Assembly: GCA_963575745.1 (NCBI GenBank)
Contig: CAUYUJ010015294.1
Span: 415,001 to 479,000 of the forward strand
Origin: Prorocentrum cordatum
Taxonomy: Eukaryota > Sar > Dinophyceae > Prorocentrales > Prorocentraceae
Reading direction: 5' to 3'
Length of the DNA stretch: 64,000 nucleotides
Shown here: positions 13,142 through 54,909 of the stretch, piece after piece
Layout: every line of letters begins with the position of its first letter
How positions within the stretch are numbered: position 1 is the first letter of the stretch
Translations under genes and position numbers: made by a program
Notes under the pieces: model-generated
Seen by the model: the letters and a program-made list of their open reading frames with translations, nothing else
Database searches by the model: none
What the model was told of the DNA's origin: nothing

Positions 13142-13401
13142 CTCGCCGTGCAGCCAGGGGAGTACGATGCGTCCCCTGAATTAACATCGTGTCACCGCTC
13201 GCATGAACTGGCAACATTACACGGGCAAGATTCTTCACGGACGGATTGGAGCAACCGTGCGGCGGGGCCGCCGAGACCGACGGCACCGAGCCACAACGAG
13301 GATTACGTGAACTGGGGCCGTACAGAGAGGGGCCAGGCGCGCAGCAGAGCTTGACCCTCTCAAGAATGGCCGAAAATATCTCCGATTCGATGCCCCCCGC
13401 T

Positions 13402-14733: not shown

Positions 14734-14880
14734 CCGCGGCCGAGCGATGGAGGGGATGTGGCCCCTCGGCCTGAGTGAAAAGCTGAGGATCGATTGCCGT
14801 GAAGCCAGAGGCCCGCAACAGCAATGCCGTTCTGAAATACGCGGTTGCAAGTCCAGGCACAACACCTGGGCCAGAACGGC

Positions 14881-33401: not shown

Positions 33402-33485
33402 CGCAGTGGCGGCCCTCCCCTGTGAAAGCGCCCGCTGCCCGGGGGGCTGCAGCGGCCGCGCGCAAGCCGAAATACGAGCGGCGGG

Positions 33486-38517: not shown

Positions 38518-38691
38518 GCCCCCAGTAGCTGCCCAGCCAAAGACGACTGGTGAATATGCTGAGCCTCGGGCCAAATTCGGGCGCTACGTATGTGTCGGGA
38601 AGGCGGGTGGGAGTGAGCGAGACGGCTTGCGGGCGGGGAAGGGGTGACTTGAACCCTCCCCCTACCCTCTCTCCCTGTGACTGGAACGGAG

Positions 38692-38953
38692 TCTGAAGTG
38701 ACTATGGTAAGTCAAATAGCATCCGATTCCATGGGAAGCGGATGGCAAATAGCGTCCGGTGCCGTACTGCGGTGGTTCAGTAAGGGGAATGGACGGATAA
38801 GATAGGATAAGATCGATGTAATGATCTTTCCATCACATAGCGAACACAAGCAGTGTTCGGGCAAATAGGGCGCGCGTGCCTTGAGCCAAAGGCAACGGCG
38901 CGCGAGCTATACTCCCGATCCTATACAACATCTCCCAATGAGCTACCCTTAAA
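38692..38953 (-). repeat. 3' LTR of the copia element
   Basis: 262 bp, aligned without gaps to 54646-54907 with about 13 substitutions. The coding strand starts TTTAAGGGTAGC and ends CACTTCAGA; the usual TG...CA ends are not evident. It contains the spliced-leader-like string at 38880-38898; the TATA-like box is weaker here (TTGTATAGG). Confidence 0.9.
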
Positions 38954-39330
38954 GTCGGGAGGGGAGGAGACGGTGAATATAGCCGCGCAGCCGTTAGGCT
39001 CTACAAAGGCCGCGCGCACGACTGTTTGCAAGAAAGACAGCGCGCACAGTCTGGCCTAACACCAGACTGCAAGGCGAGTTTCCTCGCAAAGCATTTCACG
39101 CATACGCGAGATAGCCCCCTGGACATCAAAGGGCGATCGGCCCGGCTAGAGGTAAGCCAAACAGGCTATACTCTCCGAGCAAGAGGGTATTAAAGCACAG
39201 AGCCTGAATCAATCTGAACAGGCTCGTTACCAAGCGTGAAAAGTAAGGCTCGTTTCCGAGCAACTAGGAGGGCGCCTCTGTATTATGCGCCCATGCTGGC
39301 AAACTGGACCGCGGGGGCAACAAGGACAGA
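38954..39330 (-). other. 3' non-coding region of the copia element with structured motifs
   Basis: Lies between the RNase H stop and the 3' LTR. It holds two perfect short hairpins of the element's family (39074-39087, 39248-39261), one imperfect copy (39222-39235), and a separate perfect 8-bp stem with 7-nt loop (39047-39054 with 39062-39069). No coding potential is seen. Confidence 0.6.
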
Positions 39331-40560
39331 CTAAAACTGATTTGACTTAGGCTTGTTTCTGTCCTCAGGACCCCGAAAGGGAACAAACTGCTTCACATCA
39401 TACTTAAATGACTGAGTGCCTGACATCACCTCCAAAAGCAGCTCCCGATCGATACTCCCCTTTGTATGCCCATCTGCGGTCATGTCTCTAGTATCACACC
39501 ACTGCACGTTATGCACTATACCTATATCCATAAAAAAAAAAACAAAAAAAAAAAAATAAAACAAAAAAAAAAAACGAAGGAAGAAAAAAAAAACAAAGAA
39601 AAAAAGAAAAAGAAGAAAAAGTAGGAAAAAAAAAAACCATAAATAAAAAAAAAAACAAAAAAAAAAAAAAAAAAAAAAAAAAACAAAAAAGAAAAAAAAA
39701 ACAAAAAAAAAAAAAAGAAAATAAAGAGCTCACAGAGTATCCAACTGATATGTCCCAGCAACGTCCGTTCCGTCGGTATCTTAAGATCTTTGCTGGATAG
39801 CGATTTGTATACAGACTCCGCGTCTATGGTAAGGGATACTTTAATAGCTAGGCCTCCAACTTCACGCATATCTCGTAGTTGTCGTGGAGCCAGGGCCCCT
39901 GCCTTGAGCTCGTGGAGAGTGATGAGCGTAGGATAACACTCATCAAGGTCGTGTGCAGCTGCAAGTGCCTCAGCGGCATAGCTGGACCTCACCTGCAATC
40001 GGTGTGATTTACATAGTCCGTCGCAAAGGTGGATGACGGATTTGCCTCGAGGCGAGTTTCCTCGCCGTAAAACGTTAGCCCCACGTATGCCGTAGCCCTG
40101 AGTCTCATCGTCTTCCTCCCCGGTGAGCTTCCGATGCCCCGAATCACTGTGTACATCTACTTCGTTCGTCGGTTTCATCCGAGGGAAGGTGATGCGTTTC
40201 GGGCTGCTGATCAGCTTTCGCGTCACAGCATTCAGTCGTCTGACTTGTAAGTTGGTGGGCTCTTGGATCTTCTGGAGAGAGACCACATGCGCCATAAGCC
40301 AGACTTGAGTAAGAAGGGCATAGGCGAGAGCTCCTCGCAGGCTAACGAACATGTCGGCGATGAGTTTGGTAGCTTTGGCGTCAGCCGCCGCTCCCGTAAG
40401 TTCAGGGTGTGTGATAGGACGTAGTTGTTTAATGTGCTCGTCCTGATCCATGATCACACCCCCTTGTTCATTCTTGGCGTAGCGAACGGCGCAGTTCGTA
40501 TAATAATGTTTGTTGAGCTTGCATTTACCAAACACTTTTTCGACACGTTGTACATAGTCA
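39331..40560 (-). pseudogene. Copia RT C-terminus and RNase H, interrupted by an A-rich tract
   Basis: Begins after the T7 run at 40565-40571, where the RT frame breaks, with FGKCKLNKHYYTNCAVRYAK and DQDEHIKQLRPI, typical of the copia RT thumb. RNase H: VDVHSDSGHRK, SSYAAEALAAAHDLDE, TIDAESVYKSL and GHISWILCEL. About 190 bp of A-rich plus-strand DNA (39531-39722) interrupts the frame here; MDIGIVHNVQWCDTRD, TADGHTKGS and a C-terminus ending KSNQF follow. Without the tract the two parts join naturally. RNase H completes cDNA synthesis; this copy should be inactive unless the tract is an artefact. Confidence 0.75.
39531..39722 (+). repeat. A-rich tract inside copia RNase H
   Basis: About 190 bp of A runs of 5-20 broken by single C, G or T. 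It separates two halves of the RNase H that otherwise join (coding strand ...LCEL / MDIG...). Same texture as 55889-56150 and 57052-57152. Confidence 0.8.
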
Positions 40561-40561
40561 T

Positions 40562-41290
40562 CTACGTTTTTTTCTCGAGGCCCGTCATGTTGATATCGTC
40601 GACGTGTTTTGCCGTTGACAGATCTTGACTGAATTCAAACTCAGGACCGTAGCTGGTCGGTGTGAGGCCTATAGCTCGTGTGGTCGTACGAAGCTTAAGG
40701 GGGAACGCTCTTGGGGCGCCCTTTGTGCCCGTCCCTGGCTTGAGGCACCTGAGGCAGTGTCGGCTTTCATCGTAAGAAGAGAAGCCTGGTAGTGTACGAA
40801 GCACCTGGGCGCTTCCTGGTGGAAGAGTGAAGCAAACCATGCGAGTTTCCTCGCCGGTGGCATGAGCAAGTTCCTCATATGTCAGACCTTTGAGGAACGC
40901 GTTGTCGATATCCATAGATGTTAAGATCCATTCTGGATGACATGTCGCCTCACTTGCCAGGAGCCTCTGGGACTGTCTTCGAGCAGTTCCTGACAAGGTT
41001 TCTACATCAAACGCCTTCGTGTCCATGAATCCACGAAGGATAAGTCTGAGACGGATGGTTTTAACATTCTCGGTGCTTACCTTCACAATCTTCCACTTGT
41101 ATACATGTCTGGATGTCATGATGTTGGAAGCTTTAGATAGGTCATACATCTCGATGCACCGGTTATCAAGCCAGATCTTGAGTTCGGTGTACACAGCTTC
41201 ACTAACCTCTTTAGGGTGTGCTGCTATATCGGCTTTGGTGAGTAGGTCGTCTTCCTTGACTACCACAGCACGTTTAGCAGCCGATGATAC
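40562..41290 (-). CDS. Copia reverse transcriptase, N-terminal and catalytic part
   Basis: KWKIVK and IRLRLILRGFMDT correspond to the conserved start of copia RT. Motif A is TSMDIDNAFLKG with its catalytic Asp, motif B LKPGTGTKGAPRAF, motif C HVDD at 40606-40595. The frame is the same as that of the integrase, from which a single TAG (41293-41291) separates it. The fold up to motif C looks intact. The frame ends at a T7 run, where the rest of the RT continues one frame over. Confidence 0.8.
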   Translation of the reverse strand, partial: VSSAAKRAVVVKEDDLLTKADIAAHPKEVSEAVYTELKIWLDNRCIEMYDLSKASNIMTSRHVYKWKIVKVSTENVKTIRLRLILRGFMDTKAFDVETLSGTARRQSQRLLASEATCHPEWILTSMDIDNAFLKGLTYEELAHATGEETRMVCFTLPPGSAQVLRTLPGFSSYDESRHCLRCLKPGTGTKGAPRAFPLKLRTTTRAIGLTPTSYGPEFEFSQDLSTAKHVDDINMTGLEKKT

Positions 41291-43517
41291 CTATACTCTC
41301 ATCGTTGCGACCATGTCAGTTTCAAGCTGTGCAGGTTGGGTCTGACCCAACACTACCTTTGACATTTCTGGTGCGAAACATAACTCAACATAAGGACCAT
41401 GTTCATCACTGTCAAGAGAATAGCCCTCGTCAGGTGTAGTCGAGCATAGAGAGATAAGACAGGGCTCTTGTGGTTCAGGCTCGTCTCCGAGCGTTTCCGA
41501 CACTATGATATCTTCCTCGTCCACGGATGCTGAGACCAGAACACCTTGGTCGGGCAGCATGGTTGTTGGGACGCAGTAGAGATGATCGTCGGTAACCGTT
41601 GTGGGATGAAGGTCCATACGTAGTTCGTCGTACCACTCCTCCATCATCATAGCCTCGATGTCATGTTCCTCGTTTTCTTCGTAGATTGTAGACAGGCGAC
41701 CTTCACTTGGTGATGAAGCACCTGGGGTGTCTGGTGGAGGCCTGTCTCCAGACTGGTCATGTTCTCCGGATGTTGTGCCCAAGTGCTGATACTTGGCAAG
41801 GTCGTCATGAAATCCTAGGGAAGGAACATGTGACGTCAGGCACTGGAGTCTGGAGTGAATGCTACCAGTGATTTGAAGGATGTTCAAGCCGGTGCCCACG
41901 CACTCATAGTAGTGGAAGGCTGGGTTGACGTCGTTGTCGTAGTGGATCAGTGTAGACCCAGTGGCGTACTTAACTGCAGGTAGACTAGACACGCTCTTGG
42001 CCAGTCTCACGGCTACTACGCGTTCAACTCGGAAATAATTTCGCACGAGATACTGTAGTGCAAGGTGTACGCGCGGGTGGAACTTGCTGTCGTCCGACAG
42101 ATTGAAGTTTCCCTTGTAATCTGGAATATAGCCAAAGACTTTGGCAGGTTTCCCTGCGCCAAGGTGAGCCACATATGTAAGGACGGTTTGCATGGCCATG
42201 TTGTCCATGCCAAGTTCCCTGGTAAGGAGGCATTCAATGTATAGCGTGTGTCGAGCATCAGGGCACATTACAATTACCTCACGTGATCCTGCCTTGGCGA
42301 CGACGTGTCCTCGTTCAAGCACGTTACGGATCACAGGAAACGGGTCATTCCAGCCTCCATGGTCGTCCTTAGTGGCTGTAGGTCGGTGATAGTCGACCAA
42401 GTCCTCTGCTGAGTAAAAGCGAGCACCATCTGGGGCCGTCTTAGCCCTGAGAGCACGATTTGTCTTAGCTACCGCCGTGGCTTGTGTTATTGCTTCCAGG
42501 CTAACTTCCCTCACGCGGCGTTCTCGTTCGTGGCCTGACGTCCCGGGCCCCTTAGGGAAGTCGAGGGTGTCGAGGTCAGGAAGAAAGGAGGGCTGAAATA
42601 CAACAGGGATGTTGCGTCTATTCAGCTCTTCCTCAATCATATGGAGAGTGCCCCTAAGAATGCCGTTGCGTGACTCGATTGAGGTCGCGTGTTGGCCAGG
42701 CGCTCGGACACGAAGTGTCGCACCCTTGTTCGCCATCATGGCCTTGGCAGTGTCATTGCTGAGGGCGCCTTCTCCATCTGAATACAAGACTTTGAAGGGT
42801 CCAAGATAGGCAATCCAGCAGTAGTGGTAGGAGTCGAGTATAGCGTCACGTTCTCTATCAGAAATGTCTTGGCGTGCTGCCAGGCGGATACATCGGTCCA
42901 TAATATGAAATATGGCTCGTTTCTTGTAAAACATGAGATCTACTTCGCCTTCGTCAAGCCAATTTCCAGGAAGGCTTACGGACGGTGACGTAGAATTACC
43001 TGGACGTTCCCATGCTCTACATTCCCGACATGTGTCGCAGATTTCGTTGATCATTTTTAGTCGAACGTTGTCCAGTCTCACTTTGTCTAGGATCAACCTC
43101 AAATTGGGTTCCTTCGCATTGTGCCACCGCAAGTGCAGTTTACGGAGTTCTTTTTTGACTACGTGAGGTTCGTGACTACGGAGGTTTTGCAGACTGTGCT
43201 GGGCGTCAAATCTCGCCCAGTCGGGCAGTCGTGGAGCCCCCGAGCCGGTTGAGGCAAGAGGGTTCCTTGTGGCTCTCCGCAGTCGTTCTCCTTCGTCAAC
43301 TGCATCTGGCGGTGGTGGTGCGCCTTGTAGGCGACCACGGCGGGCCGCTACTTGTGGCGGCTCGCCTGAAGACGCTGAAGGCGTGTTTCCACGCTCGGGC
43401 GCGTCTCGCAGTACATCGAAACTGCTGGCGCCAGATGTAGGATCAGTGTTCCCAAAGGCTCGTGGTCGCGGTGGCCTGGCGCGAGCGCCCTGACGGCCAC
43501 CCGATGCTGAAGCTTGG
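41291..43517 (-). CDS. Copia integrase and C-terminal extension
   Basis: A zinc-binding region reads LRKLHLRWHNA ... CDTCREC (HH-CC type). The DDE core has EVDLMFY and IMDR, VLYSDGEGAL and SIESRNGILRG, with about 33 residues between the second Asp and the Glu. The integrase would insert the cDNA. It enters from the preceding frame at a C9 run (43518-43526). The C-terminal ~400 residues include KVFGYIPDYKGNF and FHPRVHLALQYLVRNY, which I associate with dinoflagellate copia polyproteins, then an acidic Pro/Glu-rich stretch up to the TAG at 41291. Confidence 0.75.
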
Positions 43518-43526
43518 CCCCCCCCC

Positions 43527-45760
43527 AGGTTTGGGTGAGGGTTTCCACCAAGCTGGCACATTGTTGCCCTCGGGATCATGATCATCTGGGAGTTTGAACG
43601 GCTCAGCAAAACGATATTTGCCGGGCTCAGTGTCGAGATGGTTCTTAACACCCTTGCTTCTCGTAAGGTCCCTTTGGCATGCAGGCCATGGCCAGTATGC
43701 AGAGATAGAATCATGAGACTTACACTGTGTAGGATCTCTGTTGTGGCTGGGACTGTCCTTTCGGACATTGTCGATGCACGCTGGGCATGTAGCCACTTCT
43801 GGGATGATGCGATCGCCGATGCGTCTCATACCTTCTCCTGGTTCAGCTTGATCAGGAAGGTCAGCAGGGTAAACATACGCAGTGCGTGTAGGCGCGTCTC
43901 CGCGCGTGGTGTCGATGGCTTCCGCCGAGTAAACGGCTTCCACAAAGGCAGACTGCAGTCGTCGAGTGTATTTTTGTGCCAGTGAAAGCTCTCTGTTGCA
44001 CGGCTGTGCGCGCACATGCTGACCGTTGCACTTGAGTCGCTCAAAAAGTTTAAGAATCGTCTCGTCGTTGCTGGTGATATTTGTCAACTTCTTGATATAG
44101 TCACCAGCCGTATCTTTATGTCCCGTCGCACATTGGTCGATGTGCACGGTTGTGATATGTGGTCGGTTGGCAAGTTCTTCCCATGGGGATCTATCATCCA
44201 CCCATGTTCCTGCGGGTTGTTCGCGTATAAACCACCTCCGTGCATTATCTTGAGTAAATGCTAGTTTGCCAGAGTAAGTTATGCGTGGCAAATCTTCTTT
44301 ACGATGCTGCTCCCAAGTGCTATGGTTGGCTTTGTAGTTGTAGTAGGATGGTGGTCCTGTGGCGCGGCAACTGGGCTGTAGCATGGCTACTCGTACGCAG
44401 CATGCTGCGAAGTAATGATCTACAGCTCGCTGCGCCGAGGGATCTCCCAGGTCGACACATGTGGTCTTGTCTAAATTGCCTCCTGAGGAAAGACCCCTTG
44501 AGAAGGCAAGCTCTGTAATACCACCCTCACCTCCACAAAGCTCCAACATATCCGCGCAATTATTGTGACCATAGTATAGAGTAAGCACCATGAGATATAT
44601 GTCCGCGTGCGTGTCGGGCATGGATGTGGGGAGGGTAAAGAACAGGTCATCATCCTCGTCTGAGCTTATCAGCTCAACAGGGGCGCCCGTGCTCCAGGTC
44701 GCCATAAGATCCTGTCCGAGTCCCGACAAGTCGTCACCGTAATCATCGTTTCCGTCTCCAACGTGCTTTTTGATGCGGCGAGGCTTGATGCCTGCCTCCT
44801 TTTCGGCTTTGAGCCTTTCCTTCTGTTTGATACGCGACTCCGTAGGTAAGACTTGCTCGTCTTGTTCACCGGTCTGCGTGCCCATCGTCGTTGATGAGCG
44901 GGTGCATGCTTCAATCTCCAGAGTCGGGAGGGGAGAAGGACAGTCATCTATGATGACGCGTCTAGGATTCTGTGGTGATTGAGTAGGCTCGTTTCCGAGC
45001 ATGACCGGTTCCTCGGGCTGCCAGTACATCCGTGTACTGATGTTGGCAACCCCTGTAGGTAGTGGTGCATGCCAATCATATCCTGTTGGTTGACCTGCTA
45101 CTGAGATATCCTGAATAAGCGTGTTGGTATCCAGGTTGATTGTTACACGTCGGATGACATCAGACCATTTCGGTCCTCCTTTGTTGGTAGTCACATAGTG
45201 ATGGATGTTGCGTTCCGTACGTGTATAAATGTTCAAGTATATCGGCATGTTTCCGTGCGTAGTGTTGCTTCCCAGGATTTTGTCGTTGAGGTGGCGGATG
45301 AGTGTGATGCGTGTCTGAGCTCGCCATTCGGCAGGTCGCACCGTTTGGCCGTACCAATCCAACGCATGTTGTGGCATCGCCAATTTGCACGTACATGCCC
45401 ACAACTTAGAGCTAATCGGCATTGATGTTGCTAACTGCATATAGGTACCACTCGGCGCATTGTCTTGCAGATTAAACCTGATACCGAAATGACACAACCG
45501 CATCCGCACCACTGTCAACTTGAGACCTTCCAGAGTATCACGCATTGGGGATAACTTCCAAACGTATCCTGGGAGCCAAACTTTATGATTTTCATGCGGA
45601 GCTTCTTGGCTTTTGTCAAAAGGTTTTGGATACGAGACCAGTGTGGGGCCACTCTCTTTCCTGGGGTTCGTGCGTACCAGTCACCTGGGGGACTGGCCCA
45701 TATTAGAGCATAGCCCCCACTGATCACCGCACCCAGGTAATCTGCGCCCGCGGTCGTCAT
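43527..45760 (-). pseudogene. Methyltransferase-like region between protease and integrase
   Basis: The first part, in an adjacent frame (45515-45760), reads ALIWASPPGDWY; the frame then shifts and continues to the C9 run. Further on, DMLELCGGEGGITELAF looks like a SAM-binding motif I, followed by DLGDPSAQRAVDHYF, VAMLQPSCRATGPPS (at the place of a PC loop), WFIREQPAGTW (an EN/EQP-type motif) and IDQCATG. The order resembles C5-cytosine methyltransferases, but the PC catalytic loop is altered, so activity is doubtful. Similar segments sit here in other dinoflagellate copia polyproteins as far as I recall. Confidence 0.5.
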
Positions 45761-45994
45761 AATCTCGTTGTGGGAAATGCAATCACAGATATAGCCTTCG
45801 TATGCGGAGTCAGCGCAAGCCTCTCTTCGTATCGTTCGATTATGACAAAAGCTCTTGTACTAAGGCAGGTTGCCTCCCTGTCCTTGTTTACCACCACCCC
45901 CTGGCCTTTCGGCCATTAGGCAAGGCGACGAGGGGGCAGCGTCGCCCTGCCATCTTCAAGATAAAGAAGATGCGCCTGCAACGTCTGCCAGCAT

Positions 45995-47209
45995 CTAGGC
46001 TTCCCTCAGATGCTGAAGCTCAGCGCTGCAGCGCGCGGTAGCCTCAGAGGCGGATTGCTCCGCAAACGTGGCCAGCACGGATGGATTGTCCATCAGCTGC
46101 TTCAATAGGCCTTTCGACATTGCGTCGTTGACCGTCTGCAACTCATGGTGCGAGTATCCCATCGCTATCTTCCGGCGAGACCGTGCAGCATCCATGGGTA
46201 CAAGTCCGCCATGCTGGGACAGTGCCCTGGCTACGAAGCAATCGAACGTCTCCAGATCATCGACGCTGTCGCCTCTCATCGTTGCTTTGGCGAGTGTCTC
46301 GAGCAACCCCTTAGGCAGGTTACCCTGCAATTGTTGGCGCTCTTGCGCAGGGGTCGGCTCGCCTGTCAGCACCGTCTGGAACGATGTGGTACTTGTGCCC
46401 GAGGCGGGTTGCCCCGCGGCTCCGAATCGATCACACCTGATTGACAGTTGCCCTGATGGCAATTTCGTTGTTGGCATGATCTTGGAGCCCTCGGGGAGTT
46501 CCATCTTGACCTGTCCCTTCCCAGGGAATATCAGCTTCTCCTGGCCTCGTTCGAGCACAATAATAGTGCGCTTGTCCTGCATACTGTCGAGGCCCAGGAT
46601 AGCTGGCAGGTCCTTGCCACAGCCTGACACAATATTCGTCTGGTACGAGTCGAGCTGGGTCAAACCCTGGTACTCGCAGGCAATGCTGAAGGTGCCCGCG
46701 GTATCAGCTGGGGCCGACCCCTCGCCTACCCCGTTGATGTTCAAACGAGAACGAGTTTCAAACGTACAAGGACGATTATGTGACTCAGCAGCCTGAAAGA
46801 ACTTGCGGCTCGTATTTTCTCCCATTATGTTGACCTTCGAGCCCACGTCTATGAGGATTGAGTTTCCACCATCCTCATGACAGGTCTTACTAGGCTGTTT
46901 GATGTGCACTGTCTCTGACGTGCCGGCTGTGCTGCCTGGCGGGTTTCCCCGCAGTTCGATCGTACTCCTTGGCGGGTTTCCCCGCATCGTGCTGGCACCT
47001 GGCCTTCCTGCGGCCATACGTGCCAGGTCGATGTACTGGAAGTACGACACGTTCTGGGCTTGAGCGCCCTGTTCCTCCCGCCAGTTGGCATACTCATCAC
47101 GTGTGCTCGTGTACTGTTCGCGGGTAGTACGTCGCGTCAGCGTCAAATAAGAATGCAGGGCGATGTCCTGCAATCCCTCATTCGTAAGGTGATCCTGTAT
47201 CGCAGCCAC
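45995..47209 (-). CDS. Aspartic protease region of the copia polyprotein
   Basis: SILIDVGSKVNIMGE carries the active-site Asp (46849-46847) in a D-V-G rather than D-S/T-G context. LPAILGLDSM about 100 residues later is the hydrophobic-hydrophobic-Gly motif that closes the retropepsin fold. Upstream are RGNPP repeats encoded by two hairpins (46939 and 46972); downstream is a helical region (LPKGLLETLAKATM). The protease would process the polyprotein. The DVG variant may still be active; I cannot tell. It overlaps the RING-containing frame, so a frameshift near 47190 joins them. Confidence 0.7.
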   Translation of the reverse strand: MAAIQDHLTNEGLQDIALHSYLTLTRRTTREQYTSTRDEYANWREEQGAQAQNVSYFQYIDLARMAAGRPGASTMRGNPPRSTIELRGNPPGSTAGTSETVHIKQPSKTCHEDGGNSILIDVGSKVNIMGENTSRKFFQAAESHNRPCTFETRSRLNINGVGEGSAPADTAGTFSIACEYQGLTQLDSYQTNIVSGCGKDLPAILGLDSMQDKRTIIVLERGQEKLIFPGKGQVKMELPEGSKIMPTTKLPSGQLSIRCDRFGAAGQPASGTSTTSFQTVLTGEPTPAQERQQLQGNLPKGLLETLAKATMRGDSVDDLETFDCFVARALSQHGGLVPMDAARSRRKIAMGYSHHELQTVNDAMSKGLLKQLMDNPSVLATFAEQSASEATARCSAELQHLREA

Positions 47210-48177
47210 TCATCGAACTCATTGTTCGTGGCTGAGAGCTCGACGGCCCTGCCTGCTGTTGCCGCTGTCGCCACTGATGAGTCTGAGAGATCCAACGACG
47301 AATTCTCAGTCTCAGGATTATTGGCGTCCAACACGAACGTAGTGTGCGCATTGTCCATCTGGGTCTGGAAATGGCGAACACGCAGTTCTCGCAGCTGTTC
47401 AGGGTCCAGTGGCAGCTCGGCCCCGCCCCCACTCTGGGGAAACATCGGAGGAGCCACCTGCCCGACTCCAGGCTCGTAATGAGTCGGGAGGATCGGCACA
47501 GGTGGAGTGTTAGGCAGGTTTCCCTGCTGAGGCGCCGTCATCGGGATAAGTTGGTCGAAGTATCCCGTCTCCATCGGTGACCTCACCTCCTCCGGCGGGT
47601 TTCCCCGCTGCTGGGGCTGTGCTGTCTGCCTGTCCAGCATATTGGCTGTCATCTCCTCCACCATGCTCCTTAACTCCCGCAGCTCCCTCGCTGCCTGTTC
47701 GGGGGCCTCAGTATAGGAGCCGGTCCATGGAAACGATGGCGCTATGATGCCTGGCGCTCGGCAGATGGCGCATACTGGTTGCTGAGGGTCTCCTTCTCGC
47801 TGATTCGCAACATGGCCCACCACGTTCGAGTTCCAGCACTCCTCGTGGAACAGGTGGTTGCACCTCAAGCGGTAGATGCTTTCCCTCGGCTGAAACTCCT
47901 CGAGGCATACCGCGCAGGTGTCTTCCATTCCAGTATGGACTTCCACATCTGCCGCCCTAGGGTGCACCCGCCGCTGCCGCTCCAGGACTGTTTCGGAGTC
48001 CATGAAAGCAGCTGGAGGATCTCCTGCGGGAGCCAATGCCTCCGGTGCTACGGCAACCACTGCTGGAGGAGCTGCCGTTGCGGAGGCTGCGGGCGACACG
48101 GCTGGCGAGTTTCCTCGCATGGGTGAGCCTCTGTTCCTCACGACCTCAAGCGCGGATGCACGTGCTTGGACGTACAC
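47143..48177 (-). CDS. RING-H2 finger segment of the copia polyprotein
   Basis: A full C3H2C3 ligand set: C88-x2-C91, C106-x-H108-x2-H111-x2-C114 and C136-x2-C139 (47916-47761), in CAVCLEEF, LRCNHLFHEEC and CAICRAPG. RING-H2 domains act as E3 ubiquitin ligases by binding an E2, and the CAVC...CxI layout with the Trp after C114 fits a functional RING. The rest is Ala/Pro-rich with RGNPP and QGNLP motifs encoded by the hairpin family. A RING is not a usual part of copia proteins; it could control host or Gag turnover. Frameshifts join it to its neighbours. Confidence 0.75.
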   Translation of the reverse strand: MYVQARASALEVVRNRGSPMRGNSPAVSPAASATAAPPAVVAVAPEALAPAGDPPAAFMDSETVLERQRRVHPRAADVEVHTGMEDTCAVCLEEFQPRESIYRLRCNHLFHEECWNSNVVGHVANQREGDPQQPVCAICRAPGIIAPSFPWTGSYTEAPEQAARELRELRSMVEEMTANMLDRQTAQPQQRGNPPEEVRSPMETGYFDQLIPMTAPQQGNLPNTPPVPILPTHYEPGVGQVAPPMFPQSGGGAELPLDPEQLRELRVRHFQTQMDNAHTTFVLDANNPETENSSLDLSDSSVATAATAGRAVELSATNNEFDEWLRYRITLRMRDCRTSPCILI

Positions 48178-49493
48178 TCTGTACTGCCTGCCTGCACCTG
48201 AAGCACACCTGTTGAGTGTGGTACGTCTGTCATGTAGTCTGGTACTCCTCTACTGCCTGATGATATTGAATGGGCCGTAGGCTGGACGGCCACCTCTGGC
48301 GTTGTCGGTGCAGGCATGAAAGCCATGTGCGGGTACATGGACTGATCACTGCAGCGCGCATTCGTGAGGCTATGAAACTGATCCGCCACTTCGCGAACAA
48401 ATCTGTTCGGGACTCTAGACCCATCTGGGTACAGTGGCGGATCCATTGGTGCTGGCGCTGGCCTCTGGCCCTGAGCCATGCTAGGATGAGCATTGAAGGC
48501 AGGGATGAAGGCTCGTTGCCGAGCAGGGCCACGTGGGTTGGGACCCTCTGGCTCCCAGGACCAGGCTGGCCTCCACCTTTGACCACTCGGGTGGGGCAGG
48601 TTGTGACTTTGCACCTGTTGCACCGCAGCTGCCACCCTTGCGCGGTAGTCATCAGGCACTCCAGCAACAGTAGTTTGGCCAGCAAAAGGTCGGTGGTGTA
48701 TTGGAGTGCCGGGCAGGTTTCCCTGCAAACTCGTTGGCGAGCCAGGTGGCATCATATTCAGAAGAGCTGTACCATGCTCAGCTCTGGCCGCAGCGATCCG
48801 CTCCATGAGAGTGCCATTCGTGGCAGATCGACCAGAAGTCCCAAACGGAGACTGCGCTGGTGGCGTCGCCACTGGGGTCATGCCCCTTGGTGTGTGCATG
48901 CTATGCGAGGAACTCCCTGGCATCTGCTCAAATCGAGCAGGCTCTCCGAAGATGCGGCCGAACGTCTGCGGGTCACCCTGCGGTTCGGGCATATCATTTC
49001 TGAGTCCATTAACGGGCAGGTTTCCCTGCATGGCCTGACGGTTACGCGTCGCCATGGCGGACATGGCTCCCTGGCCAGCGGCGCAGGGGTCTTGCTGGTA
49101 CAGTCTGTCCGCCAACTGTTCCACCTGCTCAGGATTTAGAGCGGCCGCGATCTGATCCAGATCTGGGGTGCTAAGGGCCTGCCAAGATATGGCACTACGC
49201 CCTTGGCTTGGAGCACGGCTTGGAGCCGCGCTTCCTGCCTCACTCTCATTGACCATTAGGATCTGGTGGATTTCGGGCCGGTTTCCCAGCAATGTTGGGC
49301 TGTAATGGTCCCCAACTTCTCTGTGACCATGAACCGTATGAGGATCATTAACCTCTCGGTCAAGAGACCATTTGTACTTGACACTAGCACTGCCCACATT
49401 GGTCCACCTGTTCGGGGCCGTCATTATGGCGGTGGAAACGCGTGCAAGGCGATTGTCCAGATATTCTGGGTTACGCCATTGTTTACACGGGGA
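48138..49493 (-). CDS. Pro/Gln-rich linker of the copia polyprotein
   Basis: Follows the KptA-like domain in the same frame. It includes LNPEQVEQLADRLYQQDP (a helix) and then long Pro/Gly/Met-rich stretches without recognised motifs. Five or more hairpin copies lie in it, giving MQGNLP, LQGNLP and LLGNRP. Function unknown; possibly a flexible or Gag-associated region. Confidence 0.5.
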   Translation of the reverse strand, partial: SPCKQWRNPEYLDNRLARVSTAIMTAPNRWTNVGSASVKYKWSLDREVNDPHTVHGHREVGDHYSPTLLGNRPEIHQILMVNESEAGSAAPSRAPSQGRSAISWQALSTPDLDQIAAALNPEQVEQLADRLYQQDPCAAGQGAMSAMATRNRQAMQGNLPVNGLRNDMPEPQGDPQTFGRIFGEPARFEQMPGSSSHSMHTPRGMTPVATPPAQSPFGTSGRSATNGTLMERIAAARAEHGTALLNMMPPGSPTSLQGNLPGTPIHHRPFAGQTTVAGVPDDYRARVAAAVQQVQSHNLPHPSGQRWRPAWSWEPEGPNPRGPARQRAFIPAFNAHPSMAQGQRPAPAPMDPPLYPDGSRVPNRFVREVADQFHSLTNARCSDQSMYPHMAFMPAPTTPEVAVQPTAHSISSGSRGVPDYMTDVPHSTGVLQVQAGSTECTSKHVHPRLRS

Positions 49494-50250
49494 GAGTTCT
49501 TCCACGTGTGAAATATAATACGGCTCAATGGTGCCGTCTTTTCCTTCAGATAGGAGAACCCCATTGTCGGACCAGCAAAATTCGATTCCGTCCTTCAGGG
49601 CTTGATGCCAGTCCACAGAGATAACGATCTCGGACTCGGGGCCCCACCCACTCTGCACGCCGCGACGACGAAGCGTCGGAACAAAGTAGATGTGTGATCG
49701 GCCAGTCCCTCTCTTCCTGGTGTTGTGTTCTTGACGACAAGAGAGGCCATGCCACATGATGCCCTCAAAGGCTGCCCATCGTGTGCCACGCATGGCAACC
49801 TCGGGGTATGGGGCCGGTCTCCCGGCAGGGTTGTCGTGTAGTACAATGTACTTATACAACGACCAAGGGGCCTTGAGCGTCCACGAGTGCCCTTGCGAGG
49901 CGCGGATGAATGTCGGGTATGCCAGAATCCCGTGCCAAGACCTTCAACTGGAGACGCTGCTTCTCCTCGCCGTCCGGCTCGCGGACGTGAGCGATCGCCA
50001 TCATGGTGGCAGCCATCTGGTCAACCGTTCTGCCGTAGAAGGTCTCGGCGATGATCTTGGCCTCATCCATCCTAGGGTTATACCCGTCCAGTCTCGTACG
50101 TCCGTTGTTCCACGGAAACTCACGTACGAGCTCGTCGAGATTAACCCATCCATCATGATCATCGAATGTCTCAAGGCTCCACGCGGCATTGTGTGATTTC
50201 TCAGGTGCGTGTCTGCAAATCCTGTTGAGGCATTTACTAAGCTGCTTGAG
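49494..50250 (-). pseudogene. KptA/Tpt1-like RNA 2'-phosphotransferase domain, one frameshift
   Basis: N-terminal winged-helix part: LKQLSKCLNRICRHAPE with the Arg-His pair, then DDHDGWVNLDELV. EEKQRLQL supplies the second Arg (K-x-R) and RALVDAQG matches the IRAxQGHS strand. After a frame change at the G4 run at 49867-49870 the ADP-ribosyltransferase-like part follows: RGTRWAAF (HGT position), GRSHIYF (the R-x-H motif), SEIVISVDW and GIEFCWSDNGVLL. All four catalytic positions known for Tpt1 (Arg, His, Arg, Arg) have the right residue. The enzyme normally removes the 2'-phosphate left at tRNA splice junctions using NAD. Its presence in a retrotransposon is unexpected. Confidence 0.75.
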
Positions 50251-50467
50251 TGTATGGTTATGTCTCGGGACAATACCTTTCTGCCTGCAGCTCTCCATGA
50301 ATGCTTCATCCACCGAGCGCATCGGTGGAAGATTCCGCAGGGCACGTCGATCATTGATCAAAGCCTGACTCCCGCTAGTGAAGGAAGTGCCCCCTGGGTG
50401 GTGCAGCTCATCCTCGGGCGGGTTTCCCCGCATAGGAGCTTCTGTCACCGAAGAGGCTGCGGCCCCC

Positions 50468-51778
50468 TGCAGCGCCGGGCGGGTTTCTCCGCAGTGTTTC
50501 TCGGCTGGCGCTGCCCGTGATCTTAGGCACCCAGGTACCCCTAGACAGATCGCATTCCTCAGACTTCTTGGAGCGTGTCGCCACAGGCGAGGCCGGCGCA
50601 AGGGTAAACCCTGCACGCTCGAAAGCCTTGGCCTTGCCGGCGATAGAGCCGCTACGGCTAGGCGGTCGTCTGCGGATTTCCACAGAGTCCTGAGGTTGTT
50701 GTCTAGGGTCGGGTCTCTGTGCTGGAGTTGCTCTAGTCGGTGACCTCGGAGTTTCAGAGCGAGGAATCTCCATCTGAACATCTAACCCGATTTCCTCTGA
50801 GCGGGCCGACGTTTTCTGTTTCTCCCTCGAAGGCGTCCTGGGTGCAGGCGTTTCACTCTTAGCCTTCGGTTGGAGTGGGGGCTTCCTTGCCCCCTTCATA
50901 TAGATCTTTTGGGACTCCAGCAGCATTTGGCGAGTTGCCTCGCGAGTGCGTTCGTCTGCTATTCGCTTGCGCTCCGCATCTGTTGCGGCTCGCTGCGCCT
51001 TCTGTTCATCGTCATCCATCATCTCTGGCTGTTGGGCCTGACTGGAGACGCCAGGCGGGTTTCCCCGCATTCCAGGAAGGCGATTGAGCGCATCTTTCTC
51101 TTCCTGAGTCGTAGGCACAAGTCCCCTCGGAGGCTGGACCTCCTCGGCCATCGGGCTCCTATGAGCCGTTGTTCCGAGACGACGGTTGATCTCGTCGATC
51201 TCTGCTTGAGTCGTCGGAACCAACGGTGGATGACCCTCTTCGGCAGGAGTGCGGCCTCTATTCGGGCTCAAGCGCTCGTTGAGCCCCACAGGACACCCAG
51301 GCCTATGCTCTTGAAAGGGCTCTGAACACGGCCCACAGACTGCGTTGGGTCTGTATTGTTTGCGTGCTGCAATGACATTCCGCAGCTGCGTCCGTACTGC
51401 CTCTATCTCAGCACGACGAATATTCGTCGCGAGCTGGTAGCCACCTCGTATGGACCTGCCTTGGGCACCTCTGTAGGCTGGGTTGCCTTTTCCGAAAGCA
51501 GAATGCTCACCCTTCTGACGCCTAGGGTCATTGTAGGCGAGCAACTGACCCCCCCGCCGAGCGGCATGCTCTGTTGGGCCTGCTTGCCTCCATTCGCGGG
51601 GGAGCCGTGCTTGCGGGTGAGGTTCTTCCCTAAGGCGTGGATGAGAGCGAGACCTCCTGGCGTGCTCATCAGATGAAGCCGCCGACGCAGCCTGAACAGG
51701 AGCCGGCGGGGGTTCCTGCGGGGCCGCAGGCGGCACATCTTGGACAGGCAGGTCTCCCTGCTGACTGGAGTCTGGCAC
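50468..51778 (-). CDS. Uncharacterised basic/Pro-rich polyprotein segment
   Basis: In frame with the segment upstream after a single TAA. Contains CGPCSEPFQEHRPGCPVG (four Cys/His that could bind metal), repeated TQAEIDEINRRLG / TQEEKDALNRLPG units, a KRIADERTREATRQMLLESQK helix and RGNPP-type hairpin peptides. A frameshift near the C5 run at 50463-50467 leads to the KptA-like segment. No family recognised. Confidence 0.5.
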
Positions 51779-51784
51779 AATTGG

Positions 51785-52927
51785 TTATTGTGCAGGTGGT
51801 GGTGTGTCTGGACGGTCGGGGCTGAAATCCACCTCCTCGTCTTCGCCATTGGCTTCCATCATGAGGATGGTGGCCTCGTCCTCGCACATCCCACATCCAT
51901 CACCTTCTTCATCTTCTGACATAGGGTTGCCGATGACGACTGTCATCGGTTCAGCCGGGACGGGCAGGTTCCCCTGCTGTACAAGCGTCTGAGCATCGCT
52001 TGGCTGTCCCGGAGTCGGCGGTACGGTAGTCGGCTCAGGCTCGCTACCGAGCGTAGGCTGCCCGATAATATTTCGCATGGCCGCGTGGTTGGGCTGCAGC
52101 CCCGCCGCCTGGAGACCCCATCCCAGCGGAGGGAGAGCCTGACCGCGCATGGAGATGGCCCTTTCAAGGGCTTGGCGCCATCTCCCTCTGGAATACCACG
52201 CATGTCGCTGCACGTCCTCAGGGTGCACGCCATCAATAAGAGTGAGGACCGCCAGCACGAACTCCGAGTCGTCACAGGCATCGGTGTCTTGTAGCATCAT
52301 GTGGCCACTCTCGACACTCTCATGACTCTCGGGATATGCTACGACCAATACAGCGCGCATCTGCATGAGGGTCTGCAGTATCGTGTGCGGTCCGTACTCG
52401 ACTGGGGCAAGCGAGCCAGGGGGTACACATGGGCCCCCTGGCACGCCCGTAATGAACGCTTGAGATTCTAGTTCCATCAGGTCGGCATAGTTTGGAGGAT
52501 ATACTGGAGTGGGCCTGGTTCCAAGCATAAGGTCGGGTTGATGTCGAAGGTCGTGGTCAACCTCCGAAGGCGAGGCCTCTACAGTGACGTCCTCGCCACT
52601 GCTCTCGTAGGCCGTGATGTTGCCTGGGTTACCGAACATCCAGTCGAAGAAAGATAAGGGCTGGTTTCCCAGCGCACCATTCTCCACAGGCGTAAACTCG
52701 ATATTTCCGAGCACAAATCTGCGGAGGTACTCGAGGTAGTACGCGTACAGTCCGTGGCCGTACGCCTCGAGCTCATCCAAGTTGTCCATGCTGCTGGCCC
52801 AAGTGAAAAATATCTGTTCCATGGCCTCAAAATCTTGGAGGCTCAGATATTCAATAACTGGTTCACTTGAGCCGAGATGGACTTCGGTCGACCTGCCCTT
52901 TCCATTTCCCTTCGCTTCGCTGGACAA
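51785..52927 (-). CDS. Uncharacterised acidic polyprotein segment
   Basis: About 380 residues, acidic, with LSLQDFEAMEQIFFTW, HGLYAYYLEYLRRFVLG, FVLAVLTLIDGVHPEDVQRHAWYS and an acidic tail PMSEDEEGDGCGMCEDEA. It overlaps the end of Gag in another frame and stops at a TAA (51787-51785), beyond which the same frame continues open. No known domain. Confidence 0.5.
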   Translation of the reverse strand: MSSEAKGNGKGRSTEVHLGSSEPVIEYLSLQDFEAMEQIFFTWASSMDNLDELEAYGHGLYAYYLEYLRRFVLGNIEFTPVENGALGNQPLSFFDWMFGNPGNITAYESSGEDVTVEASPSEVDHDLRHQPDLMLGTRPTPVYPPNYADLMELESQAFITGVPGGPCVPPGSLAPVEYGPHTILQTLMQMRAVLVVAYPESHESVESGHMMLQDTDACDDSEFVLAVLTLIDGVHPEDVQRHAWYSRGRWRQALERAISMRGQALPPLGWGLQAAGLQPNHAAMRNIIGQPTLGSEPEPTTVPPTPGQPSDAQTLVQQGNLPVPAEPMTVVIGNPMSEDEEGDGCGMCEDEATILMMEANGEDEEVDFSPDRPDTPPPAQ

Positions 52928-54624
52928 TCTTTTACAACATGATCGGTACTATCACACTCATGGCACTTTAGGATCTGGCCGTCTCTACCTCGCGGGTTTC
53001 CCCGCCTACCTTTACCTTTGCCTGAGGTATCTCTACGGCCTTTACCACGGCCTTTCCCCCCGAAAAATATCTCATCATACTGATCATGTGAGAGCCTCTG
53101 AAGGAAAGCCGCGATGCCTCGTCCACTCAACCTACGGCGGCCCCGTTTGCCTTTACCTTTTCCTTTGAAACTCCTCCGGGTCCTCCTCCTAACACGACGC
53201 ACTGGTTTTCGTGTGAACCTCCTCCACCTCCGCTTTGCCTGTTGTAATAACCAGAACAGGTGTTCGGCACGCTGGTTGTCACCTTCAATTTGCATGATAT
53301 CCGACCAGTCTGAAGGTTCAACACCATCTGATGATATGGCGTCGGTGTCGGTGCCGGAGTCGAAATCGTCATTTCCCAGGTAGGTGGATGCACCGTCGTG
53401 TAGGGGATTCGCTTCACCCCATAAGGAACGGTGTGGTTGAGGTTCTCTAGGAGGGGGGCTGGTTGCCCAGCTTGGTTGTGATCGATCCCCTGTTAGTAGG
53501 GCTGTGGACTCTCCAGGATCGTCGGCCCATATGCTTGAGGGCCCGTTGCCAGGCTGAGCTTCGGTGGTTAAGGTAGTATAGAAATTTCCACTACCAATTC
53601 CCCTTCCCCCTCCAAACACTAATCCTACGTTGCCAGGAGACCGTTCTGACAAATTGCCTATCGAGCGCATCCTCTCGCACAACTCATCATACTCTTGTTG
53701 TCTTCGGGGCATTTGGTGGTTGAGTGGCTGCAAGAGTTGCATGGCTCTCTGGCTGCCGACGCCTAGGGCGCGAAATAGGATAGTAGTAAGCAGTTGGAAG
53801 TTGGGAAGGTCAAACCCCACCGACCGTGCCTCAAGACGGGCCATCTCGAACCGAGTGAGGGTTACATCGATTCGTTCTCCGTGAGGCACATGGAAGTCGA
53901 TGAGCTGTGTGCCTGAAGTAAGCTGGCGCTCATCTTCCAAGCGTTCGAACTTCACGCTTAAGAGGAGCATAATGTATGGTGCTGGGTCGGTGTGGACACC
54001 ATCGATGTCCGCACCGTAGTTTATAATGTCAGGTGGTACCCTCATGGCGAGTGTCCTCGCTAGGCCACCCAGGCCGCGTTGCATGGCGGCTGCTTGGGCC
54101 TGTGGCGTCATGCGTCCGCTTGTGACGTTGAGCCACGCGTTGACCTCATAAACGTACTCGCGGAAAGGTACGTTGCCTTGAGGGTCCCAGAATGGGCCAT
54201 GTGTTTGCCCATCGGTGCTGTTGTCTCCTCGGCGCATGTGTCCGATTGTTGCCCCCAGCGCAAACCATATGATGGCGAAGATAACCAGCCCAAGGCTGTG
54301 AAGATATGTGTGGTTATCAGGCGCGTTGCCGCGCTGGGGTGGCGCCTTGTCAAGTCTTCGAGGCGCTTTATCTTGCGGGTCCCCCCGCCTCTGCTTCAAG
54401 TGCTGCGCTTCTGGCTCGTTGCCGAGCGGTTGGTAGTAGCGTAGTGATGAAGCGTATATGGTACCAATGTTGTTGTCTAGACGTCGTACCTCTCGCGTTG
54501 CTTCTTGCTCTTGAACTGATCCTCGTAGATGTAGTTGGAGTGGTGGCGCAGGGTGGTAGTTGGTCACGAAGATCGCGCCAGATAGCGTGAGGAAAAGAAG
54601 AGCAAGAGCTGACCACACGAGAGT
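52843..54624 (-). CDS. Gag-like segment with zinc knuckle and two hydrophobic helices
   Basis: Begins after the primer-binding site; the first in-frame Met is only at 54237, so translation start is unclear. Two hydrophobic segments (VWSALALLFLTLSGAIFV at about 54618-54567, LGLVIFAIIWFALGATIG at about 54294-54241) precede a helical capsid-like region (VPFREYVYEVNAWLN, FERLEDERQL, FDLPNFQLLTTILFRALG, YDELCERMRSIG). A basic Gly/Arg/Lys stretch and C-H-E-C-x4-H-x4-C (52965-52924) follow, a classical zinc knuckle for RNA binding. Membrane-like helices are unusual for a copia Gag. RGN/LGN-x-P peptides mark the encoded hairpins. Confidence 0.75.
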   Translation of the reverse strand, partial: TLVWSALALLFLTLSGAIFVTNYHPAPPLQLHLRGSVQEQEATREVRRLDNNIGTIYASSLRYYQPLGNEPEAQHLKQRRGDPQDKAPRRLDKAPPQRGNAPDNHTYLHSLGLVIFAIIWFALGATIGHMRRGDNSTDGQTHGPFWDPQGNVPFREYVYEVNAWLNVTSGRMTPQAQAAAMQRGLGGLARTLAMRVPPDIINYGADIDGVHTDPAPYIMLLLSVKFERLEDERQLTSGTQLIDFHVPHGERIDVTLTRFEMARLEARSVGFDLPNFQLLTTILFRALGVGSQRAMQLLQPLNHQMPRRQQEYDELCERMRSIGNLSERSPGNVGLVFGGGRGIGSGNFYTTLTTEAQPGNGPSSIWADDPGESTALLTGDRSQPSWATSPPPREPQPHRSLWGEANPLHDGASTYLGNDDFDSGTDTDAISSDGVEPSDWSDIMQIEGDNQRAEHLFWLLQQAKRRWRRFTRKPVRRVRRRTRRSFKGKGKGKRGRRRLSGRGIAAFLQRLSHDQYDEIFFGGKGRGKGRRDTSGKGKGRRGNPRGRDGQILKCHECDSTDHVVKDCPAKRREMERAGRPKSISAQVNQLLNI

Positions 54625-54631
54625 GCGGCCA

Positions 54632-54643
54632 GCTCCGCTACCA
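54632..54643 (-). promoter_or_regulatory. Primer-binding site complementary to an initiator-Met-like tRNA 3' end
   Basis: The coding strand reads TGGTAGCGGAGC two nt after the 5' LTR. TGGTAxCxGAG is the usual PBS of copia elements primed by initiator tRNA-Met (whose 3' end includes the acceptor sequence and CCA). It fixes the direction of the element and the inner edge of the 5' LTR. Confidence 0.75.
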
Positions 54644-54645
54644 AA

Positions 54646-54907
54646 TCTGAAGTGACTATGGCAAGTCAAATAGCATCCGATTCCATGGGAAGCTGATGGC
54701 AAATAGCGCCCGGTGCCGTACTGTGGTGGTTCAGCAAGGGGAATGGACGGATAAGATAGGATAAGATCGATGTAATGATCTTTCCAGCACGTAGCGAACG
54801 CAAGCAGTGTCCGGGCAAATAGGGCGCGCGCGCCTTGAGCCAAAGGCAACGGCGCGCGAGCTACACTCCCGATCCTATATAACATCTCCCAAAGAGCTAC
54901 CCTTAAA
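54646..54907 (-). repeat. 5' LTR of the copia element
   Basis: Second LTR, next to the primer-binding site. The long open Gag frame continues backwards through it, which is probably accidental. It holds a TATA-like box and a spliced-leader-like sequence set inside a GC-rich inverted repeat (GCGCGCC...GGCGCGC). Confidence 0.9.
54834..54882 (-). promoter_or_regulatory. TATA-like box and spliced-leader-like putative transcript start
   Basis: On the coding strand TTATATA (54882-54876) is followed about 25 nt later by CCGTTGCCTTTGGCTCAAG (54852-54834). The dinoflagellate spliced leader, as I remember it, contains CCGTAGCCATTTTGGCTCA followed by AG; the LTR string is the same except one substitution and a 2-nt gap. 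The spacing suggests that transcription could start at the leader-like string, giving an mRNA with a pseudo-leader 5' end. This is inference; no transcript data are visible. Confidence 0.5.
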
Positions 54908-54909
54908 AG

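Follow-up and report, generated by a model that had tools for sequence, protein, structure and literature searches.

The 64,000-nucleotide (nt) window analyzed here, positions 415,001 to 479,000 of contig CAUYUJ010015294.1 of the dinoflagellate Prorocentrum cordatum (assembly GCA_963575745.1), contains a copia-type long terminal repeat (LTR) retrotransposon, further referred to as element W, the coding strand of which carries 40 copies of a 14-nt mini-hairpin. These hairpins are a selected RNA structure common to an element family of this genome, with loop dialects that are specific to each element. Element W spans 38692-54907 (16.2 kb) on the minus strand; all coordinates are window positions, and all of its features lie on that strand. 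It is bordered by a 262-nt direct repeat, 95% identical and 15,954 nt apart from start to start, corresponding to the 5' LTR (54646-54907) and the 3' LTR (38692-38953); among the 13 differences between them, 10 are transitions. Directly after the 5' LTR lies a primer-binding-site-like stretch (TTTGGTAGCGGAGC; 54632-54645), which we take to resemble the initiator transfer RNA primer-binding site of plant copia elements, and its last 12 bases recur in a second element of the same genome (element B, see below). The pentamer GTCAC, found one base outside the 5' LTR (54909-54913) and 10 nt beyond the 3' LTR (38677-38681), may represent a target duplication.

The internal region of element W contains Gag-like, Tpt1/KptA-like, RING, protease-like, integrase, RVT_2-like reverse transcriptase (RT) and RNase H parts, covered by 11 minus-strand open reading frames (ORFs) of at least 200 amino acids in differing frames, most of which overlap or almost touch the next one. 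Gag is represented by the post-LTR part (52843-54645) of an ORF at 52843-54954, with P0016-P0018 as protein relatives. By eye, it possesses an arginine/lysine-rich stretch (53116-53232), the putative hairpin-binding region, and a CCHC zinc knuckle (52924-52965), which is visible by eye as well and weakly detected by Pfam (CCHC, E 0.034; a related model, E 0.0033; both under the cut-off). No relatives of Gag were found in the PDB by sequence. A protease-like active-site stretch (ILIDVGSKVNI; 46826-46858; relatives P0019-P0023), recognized by eye, is followed by the integrase-region ORF (41291-43768), which has no Pfam match of its own and was identified through its relatives (P0001-P0015), PF00665 being present in three of them. 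The RT ORF (40562-41266) matches RVT_2 with an E value of 1.7e-6 and 28.2 bits, under the cut-off of 31.6, and precomputed RVT_2 matches are present in three relatives. The RNase H region (39343-40535; relatives P0002-P0004) is split by a T-rich insertion at approximately 39532-39737. The order is thus protease, integrase, RT and RNase H, with an RVT_2-type RT downstream of the integrase, as in Ty1/copia. It should be noted that protease, integrase and RNase H were assigned via relatives only, as Pfam recognizes solely the Tpt1, RING, RVT_2 and weak CCHC parts. Given the ORFs in differing frames and the interruption of the RNase H region, the copy of element W in the window looks dead. The 23 relative proteins have no match in the window outside element W, and no DNA relatives were found among viral contigs or prokaryote genome contigs.

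Additional coding content was present in element W. A domain similar to the RNA 2'-phosphotransferase Tpt1/KptA (49542-49811; PF01885, E 2.7e-10, 41 bits versus a cut-off of 26) is unusual cargo for a retrotransposon. A RING finger is located at 47758-47922, and the relative P0022 likewise possesses a RING upstream of its protease-like region. Finally, a stretch reading ELCGGEGG...VDLGDP (43443-45545) recalls, by eye, a DNA methyltransferase fold, for which no Pfam match was obtained.

The 40 hairpins of element W consist of 31 perfect copies of GCnnG-GNRA-CnnGC, i.e. fully paired with a GNRA loop, and nine copies with one deviation. Given as 5' arm and loop on the coding strand, the perfect copies with a GAAA loop are GCGGG-GAAA (52992-53005, 51055-51068, 50418-50431, 47595-47608, 46972-46985 and 46939-46952), GCAGG-GAAA (49016-49029, 48713-48726, 47514-47527 and, in the integrase region, 42144-42157), GCGAG-GAAA (48105-48118, 40841-40854 inside RT, 40052-40065 and, in the 3' untranslated region (UTR), 39074-39087), GCTCG-GAAA (44987-45000 and, in the 3' UTR, 39248-39261), GCTGG-GAAA (52660-52673) and GCGTG-GAAA (43381-43394). 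A GCAA loop occurs in GCTCG-GCAA (54414-54427 and 48511-48524), GCGCG-GCAA (54321-54334), GCTGG-GCAA (53458-53471), GCGAG-GCAA (50930-50943) and GCGGG-GCAA (46404-46417), and a GAGA loop in GCAGG-GAGA (51748-51761), GCCGG-GAGA (49813-49826), GCGCG-GAGA (43892-43905) and GCTCG-GAGA (41479-41492). The remaining perfect copies are GCAGG-GGAA (51964-51977), GCGGG-GGGA (54375-54388) and GCAGG-GTAA (46315-46328). Two further copies, GCGAG-GACA (54047-54060) and GCTCG-GTAG (52039-52052), deviate in the loop only, bringing the number of perfect stems to 33. The other deviating copies contain one G-U pair (53541-53554, 49277-49290 and, in the 3' UTR, 39222-39235), one A-C mismatch (48968-48981), one C-A mismatch (45245-45258), one deviation in the closing pair (50479-50492) or one deviation at 41740-41753. 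For eight of the nine, a single transition explains the deviation. A preliminary description of the window had listed 30 perfect copies, all of which are present, including the GTAG loop at 52039, with 43893 now corrected to 43892; it lacked the perfect copies at 43381 and 50930, the perfect stem at 54047 and the single-deviation copy at 45245. Six of its seven imperfect copies indeed have one deviation, while the one at 52513 has two, and its seven stem types become eight of the possible 16 among the 31 perfect copies in a hand count. Its remark that none was noticed in the rest of the window holds for perfect copies, none of which occurs on either strand of the 47.8 kb outside element W; one single-deviation match per strand was found there.

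The number of hairpins is far beyond chance expectation and their occurrence is limited to one strand. Against the 31 perfect copies found, dinucleotide shuffles (n = 200) gave a mean of 0.02 and local shuffles (n = 60) a mean of 0.017, with a maximum of one in both cases. The opposite strand of element W does not carry any hairpin with zero or one deviation. Similarly, the framework GCnnGGNRACnnGC, regardless of pairing, occurs 36 times on the coding strand of element W, with 31 copies paired and the other five one transition off (three G-U, two A-C), versus zero times on its other strand and six times outside the element on both strands, none of these six being paired. The two variable stem pairs, columns 3-12 and 4-11, are Watson-Crick in 38/40 and 37/40 copies (permutation maxima, 25 and 26). 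In a pair-count analysis, 97.8% of the cells were paired, with a covariation score of 0.539 versus 0.104 that was reached by 0/500 shuffles; the counts of covarying pairs and of pair types were not above those of shuffles (498 and 197 of 500), because only two stem pairs vary. Loops of 3 and of 5-9 nt in element W are closed by only two GCnnG stems. When folded in a 174-nt context, the mean stem probability of the hairpins was 0.87 with native and 0.79 with shuffled flanks (25/31 higher; Wilcoxon p 0.007). The hairpins are distributed along the whole element, uniform placement not being rejected (p 0.18), with a density of 2.7-5.3 per kb that falls to 1.1-1.5 per kb in the segments of the integrase and of RT-RNase H. 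An unpaired C follows as 15th base at the 3' side of 36/40 hairpins, also in those off codon phase 2; this could be due either to a binding protein or to the copying of a 15-nt unit. Rfam covariance models did not yield any match up to an E value of 1 in 16.4 kb. Docking of the loops to GAAA receptors was considered and rejected, as element W contains no receptor-like pair (0 versus 0.39 expected).

As most copies lie within ORFs, and 3/40 in the 3' UTR, selection on an encoded peptide of the type xGNxP, for instance a protease site, with the hairpin as a by-product, had to be weighed against selection on the RNA. The ORFs of element W indeed encode 26 xG[ND]xP peptides, 22 of which obey the hairpin rule. 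When synonymous codons were shuffled with preservation of the peptides (500 runs), a mean of 1.39 hairpins (maximum, six) was obtained versus 30 counted in the ORFs; the latter correspond to 29 sites, the one at 50418 lying in two overlapping ORFs and being counted twice. Furthermore, a hand tally assigned 22 of the 31 strict copies to phase 2 (including 50418), four to phase 0 and three to phase 1, with two in the 3' UTR. Homologous proteins back the reading frame at 46404 and 42144 (both phase 0) and at 53458 and 40841 (both phase 1), all of them off phase 2. As the hairpins occupy all three codon phases and the 3' UTR, the peptide is not the selected target. Among 14 close protein relatives, the numbers of hairpin-compatible peptides were 12 in phase 0, 5 in phase 1 and 10 in phase 2 versus shuffle means of 0.41, 2.09 and 0.18, the set including the near-duplicates P0016/P0017 and P0019/P0020. 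Nine distant relatives gave 2, 2 and 0 versus 0.27, 1.64 and 0.11; P0008-P0015 and P0023 served as a contrast group only. The enrichment in phase 1 is not convincing. In the close relatives, the pairing rule is obeyed by 10/11 [RLQHP]G[ND]xP peptides versus 7/27 without the trailing proline, and by 0/6 in the distant relatives, indicating that the peptides lacking the proline and those of the distant relatives are mostly ordinary protein sequence.

Close copies of element W allowed the conservation of individual sites to be followed. When the RT protein was searched against the same assembly (4.13 Gb; 21,875 contigs), 8,869 first-look candidates were obtained, 150 of which were scored; all 150 places, the one in the window included, match at 91-100% amino acid identity. 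Six pieces from three of the 149 other scored places cover 12 of the 40 hairpin sites. These three copies are approximately 84% identical to element W and closely similar to each other, so that they do not constitute three independent observations. The preliminary description had asked for presence or absence at orthologous sites: the framework is kept at 12/12 sites and perfect pairing at 11/12, the exception being the 3' UTR site at 39222, which is not fully paired in the three copies. The sites at 46972, 46939, 46404, 46315, 42144, 41479, 40841, 40052, 39248 and 39074 are paired in all three copies. The site at 41740, defective in element W, is perfect in all three, which fits a remnant of an intact source. 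Indeed, nine deviating positions were observed in the 40 copies versus 12.8 expected at the LTR drift rate if all had been perfect at insertion, and element W could therefore be a neutral remnant of a source with essentially all hairpins intact. In copy 1, the hairpin 14-mers differ at 6/168 positions (2/144 constrained ones) versus 250/1,288 (approximately 19%) in the flanks. This contrast extends to third codon positions, 2/43 of which differ inside the hairpins versus 115/328 beside them (p approximately 1e-5), with copies 2 and 3 behaving alike. Hence, the RNA letters of the hairpins are protected beyond the needs of the protein.

Three further elements of the same genome, named B, C and D and read in part, revealed how the motif varies at a larger distance. 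Element B (C1, approximately 2,045-2,062 kb) has LTRs that are 99.0% identical over 289 nt and shares with element W the 12-mer after the 5' LTR mentioned above. For elements C and D, approximately 12 kb each, no LTR pair was recognized in the former and only a 70-nt stretch in the latter. The coding strand of element B carries 30 perfect copies of GCnnG-GNNA-CnnGC, mostly in phase 0, versus none on its other strand. Its hairpins mostly encode AGPPA/AGSPA-type peptides, and 24/30 of its loops are GNCA, the commonest being GCCA (13) and GTCA (8). Elements C and D contain 12 and 13 paired copies when G-U pairs are included, 4 and 9 of which are fully Watson-Crick. In 218 kb of other sequence of this genome, only two perfect hairpins were encountered on both strands together. 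The third loop base is a purine versus a pyrimidine in 34 versus 1 copies of element W and in 4 versus 28 copies of element B (Fisher p 1.6e-13), with ratios of 9/3 and 6/7 in elements C and D. Thus, because element B uses mainly GNCA loops, the GNRA cap is a dialect of element W rather than a rule, and GCnnG-GNNA-CnnGC is the common form. In element B, hairpins sometimes occur in pairs exactly 18 nt apart (L009 1414-1446, 2605-2637 and 9386-9418), and overlapping GCCGC/GCGGC inverted repeats follow each other at 9-nt steps (L009 7279-7342).

The pairing itself bears the signature of RNA. On the four coding strands together, the framework is fully Watson-Crick in 75 copies and contains one G-U in 16, one A-C in four and other combinations in three, and the excess of G-U over A-C favours RNA over DNA pairing. 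The G-U pairs are kept rather than being mere decay, as the G-U form GG/CT occurs six times in element C. Moreover, two sites shared by elements W, B and C show compensatory stem changes. At the RNase H site (40052 in element W), GCGAG/CTCGC of element W corresponds to GCGTG/CACGC in elements B and C. At the integrase site (42144), the three elements have GCAGG/CCTGC, GCGGG/CCCGC and GCGGG/CCTGC, representing the A-U, G-C and G-U forms, respectively. A gag site near reference residue 420-440 has a hairpin in elements W, B and D in differing codon phases, although its exact homology is looser. Most hairpins of element W lack a recognized partner at the same site in elements B, C or D, implying that hairpin sites turn over at this distance. 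The preliminary description had proposed a selected, covarying RNA fold with a GNRA cap, open to objection if shuffled controls matched the counts, if the other strand or other DNA were equally rich, or if relatives lost complementarity while keeping the peptide. Codon shuffles, strand, other DNA of the genome and related elements all agree with the selected fold, and complementarity turned out to be kept while the peptide changes; only the universality of the GNRA cap has to be given up.

A plain count of the motif across the genome is less informative. Without a pairing requirement, the 15-nt pattern matches the two strands 54,474 and 54,115 times, compared with 16,045 and 15,977 times for the reversed pattern, but only 7/100 places among the matches listed were fully paired by eye. 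As few places are paired and many of the others stem from a GCCAGG tandem repeat, the raw count is not a measure of the hairpin. This repeat, GCCAGG[CG]GAC..., matches the unpaired pattern by chance; it is frequent on C2 at approximately 1,467-1,506 kb and also occurs in the window at 21249-21565.

Strand specificity, use of all codon phases, synonymous protection and use of G-U pairs together establish a role at the RNA level. With moderate confidence, the best explanation is that the hairpins would be dispersed stem-loops in the genomic RNA of the element, bound by its own Gag, that mark and pack this RNA. Gag is the predicted reader and packaging the predicted purpose in view of the distribution of the hairpins along the whole RNA, the loops specific to each element, the basic stretch and zinc knuckle of Gag, and the packaging signals of other viruses. 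Lambda-type boxB, a hairpin of approximately 15 nt with a 5-bp stem and a GNRA-like loop, is read by an arginine-rich peptide; this likeness may serve as a working model for the arginine-rich stretch of Gag only, and no homology is claimed. Through this stretch and its zinc knuckle, Gag would bind the stem-loops individually, each of them weakly but many together strongly. Such binding could mark the RNA as self and nucleate packaging of this RNA into the particle that hosts reverse transcription. As ribosomes would melt the hairpins, Gag might mainly capture untranslated RNA, packaging starting once translation has ended. The concerted change of loop letters between elements would then track a changed binding preference of each Gag. 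More tentatively, tens of hairpins per element with lineage-specific loops co-evolving with Gag might amount, in this large retrotransposon family, to a self-recognition code by which an element would pack its own RNA to the exclusion of that of its neighbours.

Capsid proteins that recognize their genomic RNA at dispersed sites, via shared stem-loop motifs, are described for other viruses (PMC6281560, PMC7612645), among which MS2, satellite tobacco necrosis virus, parechovirus and the hepatitis B pregenome are mentioned (PMC6281560, PMC7612645, PMC8472981), and further literature deals with the same subject (PMC3593212, PMC4751978, PMC5431903). As in these viruses, many short stem-loops with a common but varying motif are spread through the genomic RNA of the present elements (31 + 9 in element W, 30 in element B), with selection on RNA structure within coding sequence. 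Unlike in these viruses, a near-exact 14-nt consensus occurs in more than 30 copies, in a family of LTR retrotransposons, with loop letters that vary by element. Viral packaging signals are variations on a shared motif and usually difficult to make out from the sequence by itself, whereas here the motif is very regular and written in differing letters in related elements, so that the code can be read directly from the sequence. To our knowledge, no dispersed packaging code is known in LTR retrotransposons, and this element family would be the first, if the reading is true; an incomplete literature search at the level of titles and abstracts did not retrieve a dispersed hairpin code in a retrotransposon. 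If Gag reads the code, the many natural variants within one genome would make RNA-capsid co-evolution testable and provide a matched series of RNA-protein specificities, and the code could explain how elements avoid packing the RNA of relatives in crowded genomes.

Several observations weigh against recognition by Gag. The GNRA fold is not kept in element B, making one binding mode for all elements unlikely, and the copy number is variable in elements C and D. Retroviral packaging signals often sit just downstream of the 5' LTR, where element W has 218 hairpin-free nt before its first hairpin. The spacing of the hairpins is not periodic (variation of 0.79 versus 0.96 for random placement, with 8% of the simulations being as even). 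In addition, the predicted formation probability is below 0.4 for 3/31 hairpins, and the structure prediction of Gag had a mean pLDDT (predicted local distance difference test) of 35 and was left unused.

An alternative is a reader other than Gag, such as a host RNA-binding protein, another enzyme of the element (RT, integrase, the Tpt1-like or RING part), or a translation or RNA-decay factor, with the hairpins controlling translation, stability or localization. This reading is rather unlikely. The evidence for selection on RNA serves it equally well, the position of most copies inside ORFs, with three of 40 in the 3' UTR, suits it, and the Tpt1/KptA-type domain encoded by element W is an unusual RNA-end enzyme domain. 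However, the loop dialects (purine in 34/35 copies of element W, pyrimidine in 28/32 copies of element B) are more readily explained by a reader encoded in the element than by a host reader common to all elements, and the hairpins extend from gag into the 3' UTR without focus at the start or end (uniformity not rejected, p 0.18). Even with another reader, approximately 40 copies of one structured motif in coding sequence, in three phases and with their synonymous positions protected, represent an unusually strong RNA demand on protein sequence.

Recognition by Gag also has to be set against a mutational origin of the hairpins. The preliminary description had mentioned a freely spreading insertion, which would multiply inside the element as a unit of approximately 15 nt via reverse transcription and be kept because it is in frame. 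The 3' C in 36/40 copies of element W, a preference missing in the other elements, points in this direction, as do the near-identical copies in element B, 25/32 of which have a GG/CC stem and some of which are paired 18 nt apart, and the position of some copies in length-variable linkers, such as 47514, where length differs between relatives. As the main account, it is nevertheless improbable. At 52992, 46315, 42144, 40841 and 53458, at least one hairpin-less relative aligns without a gap opposite the hairpin, so that the hairpin was gained or lost by substitution at these five sites; in distant relatives, hairpin sites have changed both in place and in length. Furthermore, 11/12 sites are kept over approximately 16% divergence with protection of synonymous positions, and the hairpin flanks of element W share no strong signal outside the 15 nt (maximum, 0.31 bit per position), all copies being in a single orientation. 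A spread of copies, followed by selection, is possible. Rickettsia palindromic elements are likewise palindromic units inside ORFs that are translated in frame; they are larger and mobile, and their pairing is lost over time. Element W hairpins, unlike these, keep their pairing at synonymous positions, and the decay after insertion expected for the Rickettsia type was not seen, with 2/144 constrained positions changed versus approximately 19% in the flanks.

Hairpins acting at the DNA level, in single-stranded complementary DNA (cDNA) during reverse transcription or integration, are very unlikely to be the explanation. Fixed sense-strand loops could act in cDNA, and DNA mini-hairpins with GNA-type loops are known to be very stable. 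Yet, G-U is tolerated more than A-C (16 versus 4), as expected for sense RNA, although a sense-strand cDNA hairpin tolerating G-T would be compatible with this too. Repeated symmetric motifs with a CGG-CCG core are reported for plant Sireviruses, which are copia elements as well, as DNA elements located in the LTRs upstream of the TATA box and, in two elements, also 5' of the env-like gene (PMC2829016); the hairpins of element W, in contrast, are internal and RNA-strand-specific, with a GNNA loop.

The production of palindromes by the replication machinery, template switching perfecting quasi-palindromes, has a slimmer chance still. Perfect stems with few intermediates would agree with it, a pattern discussed for nematomorph mitochondria (PMC6649704). 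The account of the latter describes perfect inverted repeats in protein genes, gained and lost between species and named beside Rickettsia palindromic elements, that are long (up to 284 bp) and for which it gives no shared loop in the part consulted (PMC6649704), unlike the single 14-nt consensus on one strand with a fixed loop type in element W. Such a process would yield any palindrome on both strands, whereas perfect hairpins with a 5-bp stem and a 4-nt loop other than the GNRA ones number 20, near the expectation of approximately 16 (16.6 in shuffles, all loops included). Sequence-specific selection is needed to account for the fixed outer pairs, the strand bias and the excess of G-U, and loop and strand specificity refute palindrome-making as a full explanation. 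Chance and selection on the peptide, finally, deserve virtually no credence, being refuted by the shuffle (1.39 versus 30), the three codon phases plus 3' UTR, and the different peptides of element B.

Further observations concern the LTRs and the rest of the window. Both LTRs of element W carry the 19-mer CCGTTGCCTTTGGCTCAAG (54834-54852 and 38880-38898, minus strand), which differs by three edits from the spliced leader of dinoflagellates, CCGTAGCCATTTTGGCTCAAG (PMC8045281), as if the RNA of the element had been trans-spliced and the leader retained in the LTR. With up to four edits allowed, no such 19-mer was found in the end pieces from elements B, C and D. Two other retroelement-like regions of the window, 8552-14865 and 29197-34959 (minus strand), are without any perfect hairpin; the former displays a weak RNase H match at 8552-9544, the rest of both regions being without a Pfam match. 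Lastly, a tandem array of 218 copies of a 9-nt unit (60792-62755) reads as collagen-like Gly-Pro repeats.

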